From assembly GCA_001770655.1 (NCBI GenBank), contig MERQ01000101.1, positions 1 to 39,694 on the forward strand: DNA of 39,694 bases, written 5' to 3'. Each line of letters begins with the position of its first letter. The first letter of the stretch is position 1. The notes under the pieces are model-generated. The model ran no database searches and had not been told where the DNA came from. It saw only the letters and a list, made by a program, of their open reading frames with translations. This document shows, in pieces, positions 10,533 to 29,395 of the stretch. This stretch comes from Betaproteobacteria bacterium RIFCSPLOWO2_12_FULL_68_20. GTDB lineage: Bacteria > Pseudomonadota > Gammaproteobacteria > Burkholderiales > SG8-39. Made by a program: the position numbers and the translations under genes.

Positions 10533-12430
<1,898 letters not shown>

Positions 12431-12431
<1 letters not shown>

Positions 12432-12895: not shown

Positions 12896-14608
12896 GTGAG
12901 CGAGTCCCACAACGTCCTGCTGATCGAAGACAACCCCGGCGACGCGCGCCTCATCCGCGAGATGCTCGCCGAGGACCCCGGGGCGCCGTTTGCTCTGCAC
13001 TTCGCCGACCGCCTCGCGCGCGGGCTCGAGCACCTGGCGTCGAACCAGACAGGGCTGGTGCTGCTGGATCTGTCGCTGCCCGACAGCTTCGGGCTGGACA
13101 CCTTCGCCAAGGTGTTCGCGCATTCGCCGGACGTGCCGATCATCGTGCTCACCGGCAACGACGACCAGAGAGTGGCGTTGTCGGCGGTCAAGGGGGGAGC
13201 CCAGGACTACCTGGTCAAGGGCAAGCTCGACCGCGAGCTGCTGCTGCGCTCGATGCAGTACTCGATCGAGCGCAAGCGCTACCAGGTCGAGCTCGAGCGC
13301 CAGGCGAACTACGACGCGCTCACCGGCCTGCCGAACCGCAGCCTGCTGCACGACCGCCTCAAGCAGGCGGTGTTCGCGCAGCGCACGCTGCGCGCGATCG
13401 CGGTGGTGTTCATGGACCTCGACCACTTCAAGTTCGTCAACGACAGCCTCGGCCACTCGACCGGCGACGAGCTGCTCAAGGCGATGGCCGAGCGGCTGCG
13501 CTCGGTGCTGCGCGAGGGCGACACCGTGGCGCGGCTGGGCGGCGACGAGTTCGTGCTGATCCTGAACGACCAGACCAACGAGGAGGTCATCTTCCGCGCC
13601 ATGCAGCGCATCACGGCGAAGCTCTCCGAGCCGATCCAGATCGGCGGCAAGGAGCTGTACGTCACCGCGAGCGCCGGCATCAGCCTCTATCCGCAGGACG
13701 GTCCCGACGTGGACACGCTGCTCAAGAACGCCGACGCGGCCATGTACCGCGCCAAGGAGCACGGCCGCAACAACTTCCAGTTCTACACGGCGGAGATGAA
13801 CCAGCTGGTCAACGAGCGCCTCCAGCTCGAGCACAGCCTGCGGCGCGCGCTGGAGAAGCACGAGTTCCTGCTGCACTACCAGCAGCGGGTCGACATGAGG
13901 AGCGGCGCCGTCGTCGGCGCCGAGGCGCTGGTGCGCTGGAGCCACCCCGAGTGGGGGCTGGTGCACCCGGCGCGCTTCATCCCGCTCACCGAGGAGACCG
14001 GTCTCATCGTGCAGCTCGGCGAATGGGTGCTGCACGAGGCCTGCCGCCAGACGCGCATCTGGCAGGACAAGGGGCTCGAGCCGGGCGTGGTCTCGGTGAA
14101 CCTCTCGGCGCTGCAGTTCCGCCGCGAAGGCCTGGTGAGGACGCTGTCGCGCATTCTCGCCGACACCGGGCTGGAGCCCTCGCAGCTCGAGATGGAGATC
14201 ACCGAGAGCATGGTGATGCACAACGCCGAGGCCGCGGTCGCCACGCTGCAGGGCCTGAAGTCGCTCGGCGTCGCGCTCTCGGTGGACGACTTCGGCACCG
14301 GCTACTCGAGCCTGTCGTACCTGAAGAACCTGCCGCTCGACGCGCTCAAGATCGACCGCTCGTTCGTGCGCGACATCGGCACCGGCGCCGAGGCGGACGA
14401 GGGCGTGATCGCGCAGGCCGTCATCTCGCTCGGCCACGCCCTGCACCTCAAGGTGATCGCCGAGGGCGTCGAGACCGACGCTCAGCTGCGGTTCCTGCGG
14501 CGCCACAAGTGCGACGAGCTGCAGGGCTTCTATTTCGGCGAGCCGCTCGCGCCCGAGGCGCACGCGCGGCTGCTCGCCAACGCCAAGCGCCGCGCGCGGC
14601 GCGGCTGA
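12896..14608 (+). CDS. REC-GGDEF-EAL c-di-GMP turnover protein
   Basis: The protein has 570 residues from GTG 12896, 18 bases after the previous stop. It has a receiver domain (D58 in L-L-D-L-S-L-P, K108), a GGDEF domain with intact G-G-D-E-F at 215-219, and the allosteric RxxD site (R-E-G-D, 206-209) exactly five residues before it. The EAL domain has E-A-L (343-345), D-D-F-G-T-G-Y-S-S and E-G-V-E-T. Both enzymatic motifs look complete, so it could make c-di-GMP (with product inhibition) and also degrade it, switched by phosphorylation of the receiver. Which activity dominates cannot be told from sequence. It is cytosolic, in an operon with the kinase and the HD-GYP protein. Confidence 0.92.
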   Translation: MSESHNVLLIEDNPGDARLIREMLAEDPGAPFALHFADRLARGLEHLASNQTGLVLLDLSLPDSFGLDTFAKVFAHSPDVPIIVLTGNDDQRVALSAVKGGAQDYLVKGKLDRELLLRSMQYSIERKRYQVELERQANYDALTGLPNRSLLHDRLKQAVFAQRTLRAIAVVFMDLDHFKFVNDSLGHSTGDELLKAMAERLRSVLREGDTVARLGGDEFVLILNDQTNEEVIFRAMQRITAKLSEPIQIGGKELYVTASAGISLYPQDGPDVDTLLKNADAAMYRAKEHGRNNFQFYTAEMNQLVNERLQLEHSLRRALEKHEFLLHYQQRVDMRSGAVVGAEALVRWSHPEWGLVHPARFIPLTEETGLIVQLGEWVLHEACRQTRIWQDKGLEPGVVSVNLSALQFRREGLVRTLSRILADTGLEPSQLEMEITESMVMHNAEAAVATLQGLKSLGVALSVDDFGTGYSSLSYLKNLPLDALKIDRSFVRDIGTGAEADEGVIAQAVISLGHALHLKVIAEGVETDAQLRFLRRHKCDELQGFYFGEPLAPEAHARLLANAKRRARRG

Positions 14609-14639: not shown

Positions 14640-15776
14640 ATGGCGCAGGCAACCGATCGCCCCGTGATCCTCGCGGTCGACGACTCGACCGATCTGCTCG
14701 CCCTGATGGCGAAGGCGCTTGCGGCCGAGTACCGCGTGCTCACCGCCTCGGACGCCGGCACTGCGCTGGAGATGGCGGCGGGAGAACCGCGCCCCGACCT
14801 CATCCTGCTCGACGTGGAGATGCCCGGGGCGTCGGGTTTCGACCTGTGCCGCGTGCTCAAGTCCGAGGAGGGCACGGCCGACATACCGATCATCTTCCTC
14901 ACCGGCAAGACCGAGCCGAAGGACCAGGCCGAGGGCTTCGAGCTCGGCGCGGTCGACTACATCGCCAAGCCGATCAACAGCGCGGTGCTGAAGGCGCGCG
15001 TGCGCACCCACATCGCGCTCTCCAACCAGCGCCACGAGCTCGAGCGCCTGGTGGGGGAGCGCACCGCGCAGCTCGAGAACACCCGCCTGCAGCTGATCCG
15101 GCGCCTCGCGCGAGCGATGGAACTGCACGAAAGCACCGCGGTCGGCAACCGCGTGATGCGGCTCGGCCAGTACGCCAAGCTGCTCGCCCAGGCGGCCGGC
15201 GCCAAGCCCGAAATCTGCGATCTGATGCTGAAGGCGGCGCCGCTGCACGACGTGGGCAAGCTCGGCGTGCCCGCCGAGATCCTGCGCAAGCCGGGCGAGC
15301 TCTCCGCGCCGGACTGGGAGCGCGTGCGGCGCCATCCCAGGCTCGGCGCCGAGATCATCGGCGAGCACGACGACCCCCTGCTCAAGCTCGCGCACCAGGT
15401 GGCCCTCGCCCACCACGAGCACTGGGACGGCTCGGGCTACCCGCAGGGCCTCAAAGGCGAGGCGATCCCCTGGGGCGGCCGCGTGATGGGAATCGTCGAC
15501 GCGTTCGAGTCCATGACCACCACGCAGTTCTACCGCGACGCGCAGACGATCGAGCAGGCCGCGGCCGAGATCGCGGCCGGCGCCGGCACGAAATTCGATC
15601 CGCAGCTGGTCGAGGCGTTCAAGAAGGCGTTGCCGGTGATGCGCAAGGTGCGCGAGGCGTATTCCGACGCGCTCGGCGACATGATCGACCTGGATTTTGC
15701 GCACCGGCAGGCGCCGGCGAAGCCGGCCGCGCCGGCGCGCAAGACCCCGGCTCACCCCGCCAAGCAGGGCAAATGA
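14640..15776 (+). CDS. REC-HD-GYP c-di-GMP phosphodiesterase
   Basis: The protein has 378 residues. It has a receiver domain (D58 in L-L-D-V-E-M-P-G, K110), a helical linker, and an HD-GYP domain with H203-D204 in L-H-D-V-G-K-L-G-V-P and H-H-E-H-W-D-G-S-G-Y-P at 258-268, then G-T-K-F-D-P. The metal ligands and the GYP loop are intact. The stretch usually reading R-P-Y-R is F-Y-R here, a minor change. Family role: hydrolyses c-di-GMP to GMP. The tail (about 355-378) is Ala/Pro/Lys-rich and disordered, and its last codons overlap the start of the coiled-coil gene by 4 bases (ATGA), so the two products are made together. Confidence 0.92.
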   Translation: MAQATDRPVILAVDDSTDLLALMAKALAAEYRVLTASDAGTALEMAAGEPRPDLILLDVEMPGASGFDLCRVLKSEEGTADIPIIFLTGKTEPKDQAEGFELGAVDYIAKPINSAVLKARVRTHIALSNQRHELERLVGERTAQLENTRLQLIRRLARAMELHESTAVGNRVMRLGQYAKLLAQAAGAKPEICDLMLKAAPLHDVGKLGVPAEILRKPGELSAPDWERVRRHPRLGAEIIGEHDDPLLKLAHQVALAHHEHWDGSGYPQGLKGEAIPWGGRVMGIVDAFESMTTTQFYRDAQTIEQAAAEIAAGAGTKFDPQLVEAFKKALPVMRKVREAYSDALGDMIDLDFAHRQAPAKPAAPARKTPAHPAKQGK

Positions 15777-18163
15777 GCAGGCTGTTCGACAAGCTGAAGA
15801 ACGCGGACCGCGAGCGCAAAGCGCGCGACGGCGCGCGGCCCGCGGCCGACGAGTCGCTCGAGGAAGTGCGGCTGCGCATCGAGGCCGAGCGCAACGCCGA
15901 GGAGTCCGTGCAGGCGCGCGTGACCGAGGAGCGCCGCGCGCTGGATCTCGCGCGCGAGCGCCAGGGGGCGGAGGTCGAGCTGCGCCGCATCGCGCATACG
16001 CGCGCCGAGGCCGAGGTCAAGGCGGCGCGCCTCATGGCGGAGCGCGAGCGGGCCGAAGCGCACGCGCTCGCCGAGGCGAGGCAGCGCGAGGAGGCCGAGA
16101 GGAAAGCCGCGGCGCTCGCCGAGGGGCGGCGCCAGAAAGAGGCCGAAGCCGAGCAGCACGCGCGCGAGCGGGCCGCTTCCGAGGCGCAAGCCGCGCAGGC
16201 GATGCGCGAGCGGGCGGCGGCCGAGGGCGAGGCGCGGCGCCTGGCGCGCGAGCGCGCGCAGGCCGAGGCGCACGCGCTCGAGTCGGCGCGCGAGCGCAAG
16301 GCGGCCGAGGAGAAGCTCAGGCGCGAGGCCGAGGCGCGGGCGAGCGCGGAAGCGGGCGCGGCAGCGCTGGCGAGGGAGCGCGGGGAGAGCGAGCGCGCGG
16401 CGCTCGATCAGGCGCAGGCGAGGACCGAGACGGAGAGGCGCGCCGCGGTGCTCGCCGAGGAGCGCCGGCGCATCGAGGCGGGCGCGGCGGAGCTCGCTCG
16501 GGCGCGTGCCGCGGCGGAGGACGAGGCGCGCGTGGCGGCGGAGGAGAGGATGGCCGCCGAGCGCAGCGCCACCGCGGCCGCGCGCGAGCGCGAGGCGCAG
16601 GAGTCCCAGGTCTCGCGCCGCGCGCAGTCGCGAGCCGAGGCCGAAGCCGCGGCTCTGCAGGCGGCGGCGGAGCGCCGCCAGGCCGAGGAGCGGGCGCTTG
16701 CCGAAGCGCGGGTGCGCATCGAGGCCGAGACGCGCTCGGCGGCGCTCGCCGAGGAACGGCGCGCGCTGGAGGCGGCCGCCGAGCAGGCGGCCCGCGGGCG
16801 CGCCGACGTCGAGGCGCAGGCGCTTGCTGCGGCGAAACGCCAGGGCGAAGCCGAGGAGGCGGCGCGGCGCGCCGCCCAGGAGCGGCTCGAGGCCGAGGTC
16901 GAAGCCGCACGGCTGGCGCGCGAACGCGAAGCGGCGGACGCCGGGCTCGGGCGCGAGGCGCAGCGCCGGCTGGAGGCGGAGGCCGAAGCGGCGCAGGCCG
17001 CGCACGAAGCCGAGGACGCGAAGGCCGCGGCGCTCGAGGAAGCGCAAGCCCGCATCGCCGCCGAGCAGGCGCTCGCCGCTGCGGCAGCCGAGCGCGGGGA
17101 GGCAGAGGCCGCATTACGGGATCGGGCGCAGGCGCTCGCGGTGGCGGAAGCGGGCGCGATTGCCGCGGCGCGGGATCGCGGCGCCACCGACGCGACCGCC
17201 AGGCAGGCGGCAGAGGAGCGCGCGAGCTCCGAAGCCGAGGCTGCGCGCTTGGCGCGGGAACGCGAGCAAGCCGACGCCGGCGCGGCCGCGGCGCTGCACG
17301 CGAGGATCGAGGCGGAGCAGCGCCGGCAGGCGCAGGCGCGCGAGCGGGAGGCCGCCGAGCGCGAGGCGGCGGCGGAGCTGCAGTCGCGTCTCGAGGCCGA
17401 AGGGGCGCTCGGGCGCGAAGCCGAAGCGGCGGCCGAAGCCGATGCGCAGGCCGCGGCGGCGGCGCGCCAGCGCGAATCGCTCGACGCCGAGTTGAGACGC
17501 GCCGCGCAGGCGCGCGCCGAGGCCGACTCCGGCGCGGCGCGGCTGGCGGCCGAGCGCGAGCAGGCCGAAGCGCGGTCGGCGGCGGAGCTGCAGGCGCGGC
17601 TCGAGGCGGAACGCCGCAGCGAGACGCTCGCGCAGGAGCGCGCGGAAGCCGAGTCGCGGGCCGCGGCGACGCTGCAGTCGCGCATGGCCGCGGAAGAGGC
17701 GCTCGAGCGCCTGGCGCTCGAGCGGGCTGCGGCGGAACGCACGCGTGCGGAGGCCGAGCTCGATCGCCGCCGGGTGGAGGAGGCCCTTGCCGACCGCGCG
17801 GGCGAGCGGCGCGAAGCCGAGCGGGCGCTCGCGCGCGAGGCGAGGCGGGGCGAGCGCGCGCAGGCGGAGGCGCGGCGCATGGAAATCAGGCGGATGAAGG
17901 CCGAGCGGCGGGCGGATGCCGCCGCGCGCGCGCGTCCGGCAGCCGGAGAAGGGGAGAACGCCGGAGGGCGCCCGCGTGCGAATCTGCGGCCTTTCGCGGC
18001 GCTGCTCGGCGCGCTCCTGCTGGGCGCCTTGCTCGGGCTCTACGCGGCGGGGCGCCTCGCGCCGCAGCAGCCCGCGGCGGGCGAGCCGGCCGCCGGGCCG
18101 CCCCTCAAGCTGCGCCTGGAGGAGCGCCTCGCGTACCCGGCGCGCGCGCCTCAGAGCCCGTAG
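15773..18163 (+). CDS. Giant 14-residue-repeat helical protein with C-terminal membrane anchor
   Basis: The protein has 796 residues. Residues 1-31 are a charged leader, 32-689 are 47 consecutive 14-residue units with no insertion or deletion, and 690-736 are basic and then Gly-rich. A hydrophobic segment at about 741-758 (F-A-A-L-L-G-A-L-L-L-G-A-L-L-G-L) follows, with a Pro-rich tail of about 38 residues. The unit consensus is A-x-x-R-x-x-A-E-x-x-A-x-x-L, two heptads with small Ala-rich core positions and many Glu/Arg pairs. That fits a very long single helix or Ala-type coiled coil, like the central helix of TolA, roughly 100 nm if straight (inference from 0.15 nm per residue). It overlaps the HD-GYP gene by 4 bases and ends the signalling operon. 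Role unknown; a membrane-tethered scaffold or spacer for the c-di-GMP enzymes is my inference. Confidence 0.85.
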   Translation: MSRLFDKLKNADRERKARDGARPAADESLEEVRLRIEAERNAEESVQARVTEERRALDLARERQGAEVELRRIAHTRAEAEVKAARLMAERERAEAHALAEARQREEAERKAAALAEGRRQKEAEAEQHARERAASEAQAAQAMRERAAAEGEARRLARERAQAEAHALESARERKAAEEKLRREAEARASAEAGAAALARERGESERAALDQAQARTETERRAAVLAEERRRIEAGAAELARARAAAEDEARVAAEERMAAERSATAAAREREAQESQVSRRAQSRAEAEAAALQAAAERRQAEERALAEARVRIEAETRSAALAEERRALEAAAEQAARGRADVEAQALAAAKRQGEAEEAARRAAQERLEAEVEAARLAREREAADAGLGREAQRRLEAEAEAAQAAHEAEDAKAAALEEAQARIAAEQALAAAAAERGEAEAALRDRAQALAVAEAGAIAAARDRGATDATARQAAEERASSEAEAARLAREREQADAGAAAALHARIEAEQRRQAQAREREAAEREAAAELQSRLEAEGALGREAEAAAEADAQAAAAARQRESLDAELRRAAQARAEADSGAARLAAEREQAEARSAAELQARLEAERRSETLAQERAEAESRAAATLQSRMAAEEALERLALERAAAERTRAEAELDRRRVEEALADRAGERREAERALAREARRGERAQAEARRMEIRRMKAERRADAAARARPAAGEGENAGGRPRANLRPFAALLGALLLGALLGLYAAGRLAPQQPAAGEPAAGPPLKLRLEERLAYPARAPQSP
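15866..17839 (+). repeat. 47 tandem degenerate 42-base units in the coding sequence
   Basis: Counting in 14-codon steps from residue 32 to 689 keeps Arg at unit position 4 and Glu at position 8 in most units, and the register closes exactly with the flanks (31 + 47x14 + 107 = 796). At DNA level the units are diverged, so this is an old array, not a slippery microsatellite. Confidence 0.9.
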
Positions 18164-26945: not shown

Positions 26946-27923
26946 CTAATCAGCAAGCACGATTCCCGTCTTCGTGATGACCTCGCCAAGGCGTTGCCGC
27001 TCCCTGGCGATGAACGCCTCGAACGCGGCGGCCCTGTCCCCCACCGGGACGGCCCCGGTCTTGAGCACCCGGTCCTTCACCTCAGGCAGGCTCATCGCCC
27101 TGATGATCTCGTCGTTCAATCGCTTGACGACCTGCGGCGGCGTGCCGGCCGGCGCAACGATGCCCCACGTTTGCGAGATCTCGTAGCCCGGCACCGCATC
27201 GGCGATCGTCGGCAGGTTCGGCAGGCTCGGATTGCGCTCGGCGCCGGTCGTGGCGAGCGCGCGCACGCGGCCGGCGTTCATGTGCGCGCCGGCGGCGATC
27301 GGCGAGGTGATGATCAGCTGCGCGTTGCCCGCGATCACGTCGAGCAGCGCCGGTGCGGCGCCCTTGTAGGGAACGTGCATCAGCTTGATGCCCGCGAGCA
27401 AATTGAGCATTTCGCCGGCGAGGTGGGCCGGCGAGCCGACGCCGGCGGAGGCGTAGTTGAGAACTCCCGGTTTGCTCTTCGCGAGCTGCACCAGCTCGGC
27501 GACCGATTTCGCCGGCAACGAGGCGTTGACCACCAGCACGTTCGACGAGGTCGCAATGCGCGAAATCGGCACGAAGTCCCTGACCGGATCGTAGGGCAGG
27601 TTCTTCTTGAGGCTGGGCAGGATCGCGTAGATCGAGGTCGTGGTGAGCAGCAGCGTGTAGCCGTCGGCCGGCGATCGCGCTGCGATGTCCGCGCCGATCG
27701 CGCCGGCGGCGCCGGGCCGGTTGTCGACGATGACCTGCTGGCCGAGGCTGTCGGAGAGCTTTTGCGCCAGGATGCGGCCGAGCTGGTCCGGCGCGCCGCC
27801 GGCGGCGTCCGCCACGATGAGGCGGACCGGCTTCGCCGGATAGCCTTGCGCGCTCGCGCCGATGCTTGCGCAAAGCAGCGCGATCGGGAGCAGCAGCAGG
27901 CAAACGCGACGCAGCCGTTTCAT
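26946..27923 (-). CDS. Bug/TctC-family periplasmic solute receptor
   Basis: The protein has 325 residues from the ATG at 27923 with a strong GAGGAGG ribosome site. The signal peptide (about 1-26) ends A-S-A-Q. The mature protein carries Y-P-A-K-P-V-R-L-I-V, G-G-A-P-D-Q-L-G-R, V-D-N-R-P-G-A-A-G-A-I-G and P-Y-K-G-A-A-P-A-L-L-D, the tripartite tricarboxylate (TTT) receptor signatures. Such receptors are expanded to dozens per genome in Burkholderiales, and most lack adjacent TctAB, as here. It follows the sulfatase gene by 11 bases, so it probably binds the sulfatase substrate or product. The ligand is not predictable. Confidence 0.93.
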   Translation of the reverse strand: MKRLRRVCLLLLPIALLCASIGASAQGYPAKPVRLIVADAAGGAPDQLGRILAQKLSDSLGQQVIVDNRPGAAGAIGADIAARSPADGYTLLLTTTSIYAILPSLKKNLPYDPVRDFVPISRIATSSNVLVVNASLPAKSVAELVQLAKSKPGVLNYASAGVGSPAHLAGEMLNLLAGIKLMHVPYKGAAPALLDVIAGNAQLIITSPIAAGAHMNAGRVRALATTGAERNPSLPNLPTIADAVPGYEISQTWGIVAPAGTPPQVVKRLNDEIIRAMSLPEVKDRVLKTGAVPVGDRAAAFEAFIARERQRLGEVITKTGIVLAD

Positions 27924-27934
27924 GGGATTCCTCC

Positions 27935-29395
27935 TCAGTTGATGTCCGGCGCCTGGCCGGGGGCGGGCGTGTAGTTGAGGTCGCCGCGCGCGAGCGCCGC
28001 CTCCCGGCCACCGTAGCGGGCAAGCAGCCCGGCCTGCCGGCGCTTCGCGCGCGCGTCCACCTCTTCGGGGTCGCAGAAGCGGCGCAGTTCGGCCTCGAGC
28101 GCGGCCAGCGTAGCGCGGCAGGCCGGATCGCCCGCGAGATCGACCAGCTCTTCGGGGTCGTTCTCGAGATCGAAAAGCTGCGGCCGGTAGCGCACGCAGT
28201 GCACGTACTTCCAGCCGCCCTTGCGCAGCATGGCGATGCCGCCGGTCGAGCCGATGGCGTGGTACTCGCAGAGCACGGCGCGGTCTGCGTGCTCGCCTGC
28301 GGCGAGCGCGAGCGGCGAGATGCCGTGGTAGCCGTCGCTCGGCACCGGCACCCCGGCGCATTCGAGGAAAAATGGAAAGAGGTCGACGTGGCTCGCCGGA
28401 GTCGCGCATCGCGCGCCGGCGGGAACTCCGGGCCCCGCGAGGATCAGCGGCACGCCCGCGGACTCTTCGTACATCGTCGACTTTCCCCACAATCCGCGTG
28501 CGCCGACGTTGTCCCCGTGATCGCTCGTATAGACGACGCGCGTGTCGCCTGCCAGACCAGCGTCTTCGAGCGCACGCAGCACCTTGCCGACGTTGTCGTC
28601 CATGAAGCTGACCAGACCGAGATAGGCGGCGATCGCTCGGCGGACTCTTTCATGGTCTCCGCCGAAGCCGGCGTCATAGGACATGCAGGCGTCGTAATCG
28701 CGCAGGTAGGGATGCTCAGGGCGCTCCGCTGCCAGGTATTGCTTCGGCAGCGGGACGCGCTCGAGGGGATAGCGGTCGTAGAACTCCGGGGGCGCGATCA
28801 GCGGGAAATGCGGCGAGACGAAGGACACGAACAGCGCCCAGGGCCGTTCGCGATGTCGGGGCGCTTCCTCGCGCAGCCAGATCTGAGCCCGCGCCGCGAT
28901 GTCGCGGTCGTACCGCGTGTAAGGCGACTCGCCCGGCCCGGCGAGCTTGGCGAGCTTGTCGTAGCCGTTACGGCGCGGGATGTCCTGGCGGATCAGGCCC
29001 TTTACGTCGCCGATGCCTTCGACCACGTGCATTGGCAGCAGCTCCTCCGAAAAGCCGTGATCGTCCCCGGGCAGCCCGCGGAAGTGCAGCTTGCCGATCG
29101 AGACCATCCGGTGGCCGCGCGCGCGCAGCAGATGGTGCCAGCTCGCAACCGCCCCCTCGTAGGCATCGGCGTTGTCCCAGTAGCCGACCTGGTGCGGGTA
29201 CTTGCCGGTGGCGAACCCCGCGCGCGCCGGGACGCAGATCGGGGAGGTGCAGTAAGCGCTCGTGAAGCGGGTGCCGCGCGCCGCCAGGCGGTCGAGATGC
29301 GGCGTTTGCGCGAGCGCGTGCCCGGCAACGCCCATCGCGCGCGGATTGTGCTCGTCGGACATGAGGACGAGAAGATTCTTGGGCGCGAGCGGCAC
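27935..29395 (-). CDS. Type I sulfatase (choline-sulfatase/arylsulfatase-like)
   Basis: The protein has 486 residues from the GTG at 29395; a TTG at 29443 is also in frame but would place the promoter region inside the gene. N-terminal metal site: V-L-M-S-D-E-H-N-P-R. The formylglycine motif is C-V-P-A-R with C54, followed by A-G-F-A-T-G-K, so it should be activated by conversion of the Cys. Later come K-L-H-F-R-G and Y-T-S-D-H-G-D-N-V-G (second metal pair). No signal peptide is visible, suggesting a cytoplasmic enzyme acting on an imported sulfate ester, although phosphonate monoester hydrolases share the fold. It is first gene of the sulfatase-tctC operon, divergent from marR. Confidence 0.9.
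   Translation of the reverse strand: MPLAPKNLLVLMSDEHNPRAMGVAGHALAQTPHLDRLAARGTRFTSAYCTSPICVPARAGFATGKYPHQVGYWDNADAYEGAVASWHHLLRARGHRMVSIGKLHFRGLPGDDHGFSEELLPMHVVEGIGDVKGLIRQDIPRRNGYDKLAKLAGPGESPYTRYDRDIAARAQIWLREEAPRHRERPWALFVSFVSPHFPLIAPPEFYDRYPLERVPLPKQYLAAERPEHPYLRDYDACMSYDAGFGGDHERVRRAIAAYLGLVSFMDDNVGKVLRALEDAGLAGDTRVVYTSDHGDNVGARGLWGKSTMYEESAGVPLILAGPGVPAGARCATPASHVDLFPFFLECAGVPVPSDGYHGISPLALAAGEHADRAVLCEYHAIGSTGGIAMLRKGGWKYVHCVRYRPQLFDLENDPEELVDLAGDPACRATLAALEAELRRFCDPEEVDARAKRRQAGLLARYGGREAALARGDLNYTPAPGQAPDIN

Follow-up and report, generated by a model that had tools for sequence, protein, structure and literature searches.

Several described bacterial proteins resemble, each in part, the rod-like protein encoded at positions 15773..18163 (forward strand) of the stretch of DNA analysed here, which comprises 39,694 nucleotides of Betaproteobacteria bacterium RIFCSPLOWO2_12_FULL_68_20 (Burkholderiales; SG8-39; assembly GCA_001770655.1, contig MERQ01000101.1, positions 1-39,694 of the forward strand) and is referred to as the window. 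According to its reading frame and its homologues the rod protein consists of 796 amino acids forming an N-terminal motif, an array of 14-residue repeats, a membrane helix and a presumably periplasmic tail. Its gene overlaps that of a response regulator with an HD-GYP domain, for which it may act as a membrane tether.

The rod shares with TolA and TonB the long alanine-rich helix and the nature of a single-pass inner-membrane protein. In the passages available of a published account, TolA is anchored by a membrane helix at its N-terminus and its middle part lies in the periplasm, the helical form of this part being typical mainly of gamma-proteobacteria (PMC12204202). In the rod, by contrast, the membrane helix comes last, the array is predicted to be cytoplasmic and follows an exact 14-residue register, and neither the TolA nor the TonB C-terminal domain was matched (Pfam, E 0.5). 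Since the array precedes the membrane helix and the charges place it in the cytoplasm, the comparison with TolA-like helices drawn in the first-pass annotation of the window was not supported. HubP, one of the HubP/FimV polar landmark proteins, resembles the rod in being, according to the passages available, a single-pass membrane protein with a large repetitive cytoplasmic part; it has in addition a periplasmic LysM domain and a cytoplasmic TPR region (PMC8789113). The rod differs in lacking LysM and TPR domains (Pfam, E 0.5) as well as repeats made of Asp and Glu only, and in that its helix precedes the membrane segment.

Among solved structures, PDB 4mcw and 4r8z are the best relatives of the HD part of the rod's partner, which resembles RpfG in combining Response_reg and HD_5 with the HD, HHE and GYP signatures. 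RpfG relocates to the cell pole, the site of its kinase, contacts GGDEF/PilZ proteins and through them acts on the pilus motor, and the passages available of that account describe no anchoring rod (PMC3749722). Thus, the HD-GYP enzyme is of a known kind, while the rod-tethered layout is a new architecture. No publication on such a rod protein was found in the open-access papers searched, as covered by titles, abstract openings and passages.

Linkage and fusion to a receiver-HD-GYP protein

The gene directly upstream of the rod gene (14640..15776, forward strand) encodes a protein of 378 amino acids in which Pfam and motif searches detected the domains and signatures mentioned above, placing it among the receiver-HD-GYP response regulators. 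It is a predicted cyclic di-GMP (c-di-GMP) phosphodiesterase of a known enzyme class. Its stop codon overlaps the start of the rod gene (ATG at 15773; stop TAG at 18161-18163) in the tetranucleotide ATGA (15773..15776, forward strand), from which we infer translational coupling. Two further genes of the same direction precede the pair, encoding a receiver-GGDEF-EAL protein of 570 amino acids (12896..14608) and a PAS-rich histidine kinase of 598 amino acids (10635..12431). Their domains were identified by Pfam, and hydropathy assigned no membrane helix to either of them, the rod being the sole product with a membrane helix by hydropathy in this four-gene run.

Six receiver-HD-GYP proteins in other genomes continue in frame into the 14-residue array, and four of these are intact as far as the contigs show. 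Relatives are labelled by genome (G), locus (L), family (f) and genus (g); some contigs carry two labels (L027 is L019, L026 is L018, L030 is G071, and the contig of L027 is G022). Receiver, HD-GYP domain, array, membrane helix and conserved tail follow one another in this order in G051 (L118:6600-8828, 742 amino acids), G405 (L146:6241-9147, 968 amino acids) and G220 (L155:6256-10254, 1332 amino acids), and the fusion of receiver, HD-GYP and array in G252 (L147) is intact up to the contig end. By eye, the same layout is present but interrupted by one in-frame TGA in G078 (L085) and by a frameshift in G108 (L079). The fused arrays comprise 18, 36 and 61 units, and the fusions occur in three genera belonging to the family of the window (g15, g16, g21) and, outside it, in genus g104 of family f46.

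The wider association was tabulated for 34 distinct HD-GYP genes with their neighbourhood to 1.5 kb downstream. Among the 22 genes sharing at least 58% identity with that of the window, 18 are linked or fused to a rod-type partner: 11 adjoin a rod, one adjoins an array-less partner, six are fused, and the remaining four show neither arrangement; the window belongs here by adjacency. The array-less partner (G091) has 142 amino acids and comprises the N-terminal motif, membrane helix and tail. None of the 12 genes below 58% leads into the 14-residue array within 1.5 kb downstream or up to the contig end, whereby the 58% line was set after the list had been viewed and some contigs of the distant genes end 0.75-1.5 kb downstream.

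In a midpoint-rooted tree of the HD-GYP proteins the 16 split-type and rod-less genes formed one group (96/96), while the six fused genes fell into two groups of three (100/100 and 99/90), which were joined with G097 and G096 at 94/91, just under the mark for firm forks. The separate groups indicate that the link between HD-GYP and rod holds in separate lineages. In G097 (L116:2060-4945) and G096 (L117) a paralogous receiver-HD-GYP part is followed by a different, VKELE-type coiled coil instead of the 14-residue array, which in G097 leads into a membrane helix (by eye), whereas the contig of G096 ends. The receiver-HD-GYP layout therefore seems to survive an exchange of the rod. In G076 the rod is preceded, at a distance of 87 bases, by an HD-GYP gene of a further kind (GAF-HD_5).

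A search of a named genome collection yielded 11 rod loci. The record titles describe all of them as metagenome-assembled genomes and, with a single exception, assign them to Betaproteobacteria or Burkholderiales. The record of L027 (CAMAWC010000063.1) bears the title Bordetella parapertussis; its contig falls in the window's family and the title is probably wrong. The HD-GYP gene lies directly upstream of the rod in seven of these loci (L026, L029, L031, L032, L033, L034, L036), and all three upstream genes are kept in five (L029, L031, L032, L033, L036). Together with the linkage table this bears out that the nearest relatives retain the neighbouring HD-GYP gene, as the first-pass annotation had asked of homologues. 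Linkage and fusion to receiver-HD-GYP proteins define a proposed family of array-tethered HD-GYP systems to which the window's pair belongs; its rod protein also shows the features proposed for the family's rods, i.e. an array in one register, a C-terminal membrane helix and an L.L(K/R)L(D/E) tail.

Sequence and register of the array

The array had originally been described as 47 uninterrupted units of 14 residues starting at residue 32 (residues 32-689; 15866-17839 of the window). Unit counts, lag peaks and a single register segment confirmed this. The proposed unit A-x-x-R-x-x-A-E-x-x-A-x-x-L was recovered at positions 1 (A in 38 of the 47 units), 4 (R in 43), 7 (A in 34), 8 (E in 40 and D in another six) and 11 (A in 31), while the final L turned out to be weak, position 14 being mixed (A 15, L 13, E 9). 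Matching the protein against itself at lags 1-59 (300 shuffles) gave peaks at lags 14, 28, 42 and 56 with z values of 10.0, 14.3, 10.2 and 9.6, and every other lag remained at 2.6 or below.

A register model of 14 states was seeded with the window units and then put through four rounds of retraining on 27 further proteins, from which the window protein was excluded. It read residues 27-721 (15851..17935, forward strand) as one single segment of 695 residues, corresponding to 49.6 units. The longest segment in 30 shuffled arrays averaged 63 residues and reached at most 137, and planted deletions of 1-7 residues were found in 30/30 cases. The complete set of 28 proteins, three of them from f15, contained 1318 whole units, with an uninterrupted run of 40-68 units in 14/28. 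Since the array of G017 is divided into 17 segments and that of L021 (one of the G022 proteins) into eight, a strict register is not universal.

Alanine, glutamate and arginine account for 34.5%, 20.1% and 17.6% of the array, while Pro, Cys and aromatic residues are absent from its 658 residues. As stated in the first-pass annotation, the units are diverged as DNA: a tandem-repeat search detected 72-76% likeness over 2-3 copies of 42 or 84 bp. As these repeats are short and weak, a recent DNA amplification is not needed to explain the array. Compared with shuffled unit order, likeness is raised between units two apart (28 residues, P 0.0018) and seven apart (98 residues, P 0.0004); the values for lags 5 and 8 were 0.016 and 0.015, and directly neighbouring units are less alike than expected by chance (0.019; 12 lags tested). 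The excess likeness at seven units, combined with the exact absence of 98 residues in L031 (see below), hints at an older block duplication.

Predicted structure, ends and topology

AlphaFold predicted helices at residues 2-18, 26-439 and 443-717 of the rod protein (mean pLDDT, the predicted local confidence, 67.7; pTM, the predicted template modelling score, 0.22). The idea of a very long Ala/Glu/Arg helix is supported by these helices and by the absence of Pro, Cys and aromatic residues, yet the mean pLDDT is only 67.7. The array contains 70 pairs of K/R at position i and D/E at i+4, compared with 64.1 (standard deviation 3.1) in column shuffles. These pairs, the lack of proline and the unit length of two heptads recall single alpha-helices and two-heptad coiled coils. 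The distribution of hydrophobic residues departs from a simple a/d heptad in that a period of 14/3 is stronger than the period of 3.5, which is also present, with Ala frequent at most positions.

The membrane helix was located at residues 741-759 (17993..18049, forward strand; mean Kyte-Doolittle hydropathy over 19 residues 2.18). Hydropathy thus supports the single C-terminal anchor that had been proposed, although AlphaFold leaves this region unstructured. Hydropathy revealed no membrane helix at the N-terminus, where no signal-peptide program was used. The tail carries the motif LKLRLE (18104..18121, forward strand), for which conservation of the tail gave the family form L.L(K/R)L(D/E).

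The ends were compared in a table of 34 members, taking as membrane segment the most hydrophobic stretch of 19 residues among the C-terminal 110, by which some segment is always found. It covers neither members cut by contig ends (among them L028, L033, L035, L036, L070, L078, L145, L147) nor array proteins that lack a membrane helix (the f15 loci, L153, L158, L159). Also left aside were the short second gene of L083 and the protein of L157 (G417); the latter does possess a membrane helix, but its tail, by eye, matches poorly. In 31/34 the mean hydropathy of this segment was 1.6 or more; weak segments were those of G076 (1.24), G014 L084 (1.39) and G077 (1.54). All 34 tails (27-78 residues) fit the loose L.L(K/R)L(D/E) pattern, compared with a mean of 2.3 and at most eight among shuffled tails, and 26/34 fit a strict pattern (0.3 in shuffled tails); both patterns were composed after the tails had been viewed. 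In 32/34 (exceptions G090 and G384) the region preceding the membrane segment is richer in K and R than the region following it. By the positive-inside rule this places the array in the cytoplasm.

An α-helix rises by 0.15 nm per residue, and the 695 residues of the array would amount to roughly 100 nm. The array is presumably a continuous cytoplasmic helix of about this length, either single or within a coiled coil. The window's source organism, a soil bacterium, seems to possess a helical rod of great length and regularity, one end of which is fixed in the inner membrane.

The rod begins with the amphipathic-looking motif MSRLFDKLKNADR (15773..15811, forward strand), recognised by pattern; its family form MS(K/R)L.D.LK.A(E/D) was found in 21/34 tabulated members and was not detected in the three intact fused proteins of the table. 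N-termini of GspB proteins (T2SSB; L164, L165, L166, L167, L169, L171) from the same bacterial family, such as MSYILDALRKSDQQRQR, resemble MSRLLDQLKKADQQR of the rod of G018, whereas the rods have no T2SSB domain (Pfam) and differ in rod and tail. The pattern MS.(I/L)LD.L(K/R) occurs in six of 12 T2SSB loci; three have frames without the pattern and three no readable frame. MSRLFDKLK of the window fits this GspB-type motif loosely (F for L). The common motif may represent a helix of general use, serving for docking in the cytoplasm or for membrane binding. The idea that the N-terminal motif by itself docks the HD-GYP protein was considered and is weakened by the similar motif in GspB.

Conservation in related genomes

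Counting the window's own genome in each case, rod matches were detected in 8/41 near genomes (E 0.001), in 37/98 genomes and 12/26 genera of the window's family (E 1e-10), and in 24/399 genomes and 10/165 genera drawn from the order (E 1e-15). The register was aligned in seven relatives, scoring gaps within window residues 50-640 (591 residues). No gap was present in L029, L032 and L027. Relative to the window array L031 is short of exactly 14 and 98 residues, and L022 differs by +14, +6 and +8, which sum to 28. L026 and L030 are short of 54 and 36 residues, neither of which is a multiple of 14. The expectation that homologues keep multiples of 14 residues was thus borne out by three gap-free relatives and, in sum, by two with whole units, and not by the remaining two. 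The ratio of non-synonymous to synonymous substitutions (dN/dS) over the array was 0.42, 0.47, 0.38 and 0.31 in four pairs, which together with the gap-free alignments supports the view that the register has been kept by selection.

The number of array residues ranges from 0 (G091) via 259 (G051) to 1035 (G022, L021), suggesting that the array acts as a spacer and not as a fixed ruler; the latter idea was dropped in view of these lengths. The first-pass annotation had named irregular spacing, or the lack of a conserved frame and operon position, as findings that would speak against it. The result is mixed: frame and position are kept in the nearest relatives, whereas in many relatives the rod is located elsewhere, the register is broken in some arrays and the array length is not conserved.

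Proposed role and alternative explanations

The natural fusions, the gene overlap and the position of the rod as the sole membrane protein of its operon suggest that the rod is a membrane tether for a response-regulated c-di-GMP phosphodiesterase, to which we assign a probability of about 0.6. The tail would lie in the periplasm and fix or localise the rod, the cytoplasmic end of which would carry the receiver-HD-GYP protein, through a covalent link where the two are fused and through binding where they are split. Phosphorylation of the receiver by the operon's soluble PAS kinase would switch the HD-GYP enzyme, and c-di-GMP would thereby be removed around one membrane-fixed site.

A potential target was sought in the 18 linked or fused genomes. 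Since PilO was detected in 16/18 including that of the window, FliM in only 3/18, and the window's genome has PilO and lacks FliM, a pilus- or surface-related target such as type IV pili seems more plausible than flagella in this organism. For the window rod a flagellar role was dropped because its genome (96% complete) encodes no FliM.

Several observations weigh against the tether. No rod was found beside the HD-GYP gene in G101, G017, G071 and G002 (4/22); the next gene downstream is kup-like in three of them, G101, G002 and G071 (by eye). Four of the 11 named loci (L027, L028, L030, L035) have no adjoining HD-GYP gene, although in L030 one lies about 6.4 kb from the rod. While 14/34 tabulated rods are adjacent or fused to an HD-GYP gene of the window-type clade and that of G076 adjoins another HD-GYP, 19/34 have no adjoining HD-GYP gene (among them G071, the case just mentioned), whereby other HD-GYP kinds were sought only among neighbours submitted to Pfam. 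Two of the six fusions are interrupted (G078, G108), and the presence of a similar motif in GspB means that the N-terminal motif is not a docking site peculiar to the rods. Confidence in the AlphaFold model is low: it is weak at residues 245-250 and 435-445 and broken at 440-442, leaves residues 718-796 including the membrane segment without structure (pLDDT about 30), and says nothing on oligomers. As some of the rods without an HD-GYP partner lie near flagellar or chemotaxis genes, the tether role is an inferred one.

In L084 (7110-17021) an array protein with a weak membrane helix closes a chemotaxis run encoding CheR, CheB and HDOD proteins (Pfam) as well as MCP- and CheD-like proteins (by eye), and the rod of L021 adjoins fliR. 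In genus g39 of family f15 matches were found in 12 genomes, of which 10 loci were fetched; in nine of these, L149 being the exception, array proteins of roughly 600-700 amino acids, starting with MTFKSRL or MLFKSHL and having no C-terminal membrane helix, adjoin flagellar export and switch genes, directly following fliR in a fliMNOPQR run (L025, L148, L150, L151, L152, L160, L161, L162, L163; neighbours called by Pfam for five loci and by eye for the rest). As a separate observation, L083:7915-12037 (G078) contains two consecutive rod-like genes, the second encoding only about 250 amino acids with the N-terminal motif, behind apparent 2-oxoacid oxidoreductase genes.

A tentative extension of the tether, which we regard as possible but doubtful, is that the rod forms a rigid helix of about 40-150 nm, adjustable in 14-residue steps and pinned to the inner membrane, which would set the reach of the phosphodiesterase and thereby give one membrane machine a c-di-GMP zone of its own; within the same bacterial order the rod module would have been adopted again for chemotaxis and flagellar partners.

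HubP/FimV and TipN serve as models of cell-pole organisers, and the rod could accordingly be a general membrane-bound scaffold or pole organiser with the HD-GYP enzyme as only one of several clients. The 19 rods away from HD-GYP genes of the clade (G076 not being counted), the chemotaxis run of L084, the rod beside fliR in L021 and the membrane-less proteins next to fliR in 9/10 f15 loci fit this explanation. However, the nearest relatives mostly retain the HD-GYP partner, no fusion to another kind of client was present among the loci read, and LysM and TPR domains were not detected (Pfam), unlike in HubP as far as described in the passages available (PMC8789113). A general scaffold is therefore considered unlikely.

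It appears even less probable that the protein is a transmembrane sensor, the periplasmic tail of which senses a signal that the helix relays to the HD-GYP enzyme. Such a role would agree with the tail pattern conserved in 34 members and with the fused forms, in which a single chain comprises the enzyme, the helix and the membrane helix. The tail, however, has only 27-78 residues and no known domain (Pfam, eight members), the receiver domain already provides the signal input, and a rod of such variable length (0 to about 1035 residues), the register of which is broken several times in some members, would be awkward for conformational signalling.

A TolA/TonB-like helix spanning the periplasm, which the long Ala/Glu-rich helix and the one membrane helix might suggest, is very improbable given the C-terminal position of that helix, no second one being recognised by hydropathy at the N-terminus (where no signal-peptide program was applied), the positive charges on the array side in 32/34 members and the fusions that put a cytoplasmic enzyme on that side. 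Finally, the long overlapping frames on both strands and the low-complexity composition could point to a spurious or functionless GC-rich open frame, but the dN/dS values of 0.31-0.47 in four pairs, the gap-free 591 residues in 3/7 relatives, the conserved ends, the gene overlap and the fusions leave this with a negligible chance, unless the whole conservation should stem from a shared error.

Other features of the window

The gene of the PAS-rich kinase contains a near-tandem duplication at 10946-11727 with a period of 381 bp and 81% match. The gene at 26946-28490, which was matched near several rods and therefore considered as a shared signalling gene, encodes a TctC-type transporter receptor.

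Significance of the rod family

The rod family, present in 37/98 genomes of one bacterial family, seems to be unannotated, since the rod protein had no match in Pfam (E 0.5), NCBIfam, PHROGs and PDB; this agrees with the first-pass annotation, to which no family combining this exact unit with c-di-GMP enzymes was known. The family bears on the question of how one among many c-di-GMP enzymes acts locally. Evolution provides a ready test set for this question, in which the same enzyme occurs with a separate rod, with a repeat-less partner, with fused arrays, with a different coiled coil and with no rod beside it.

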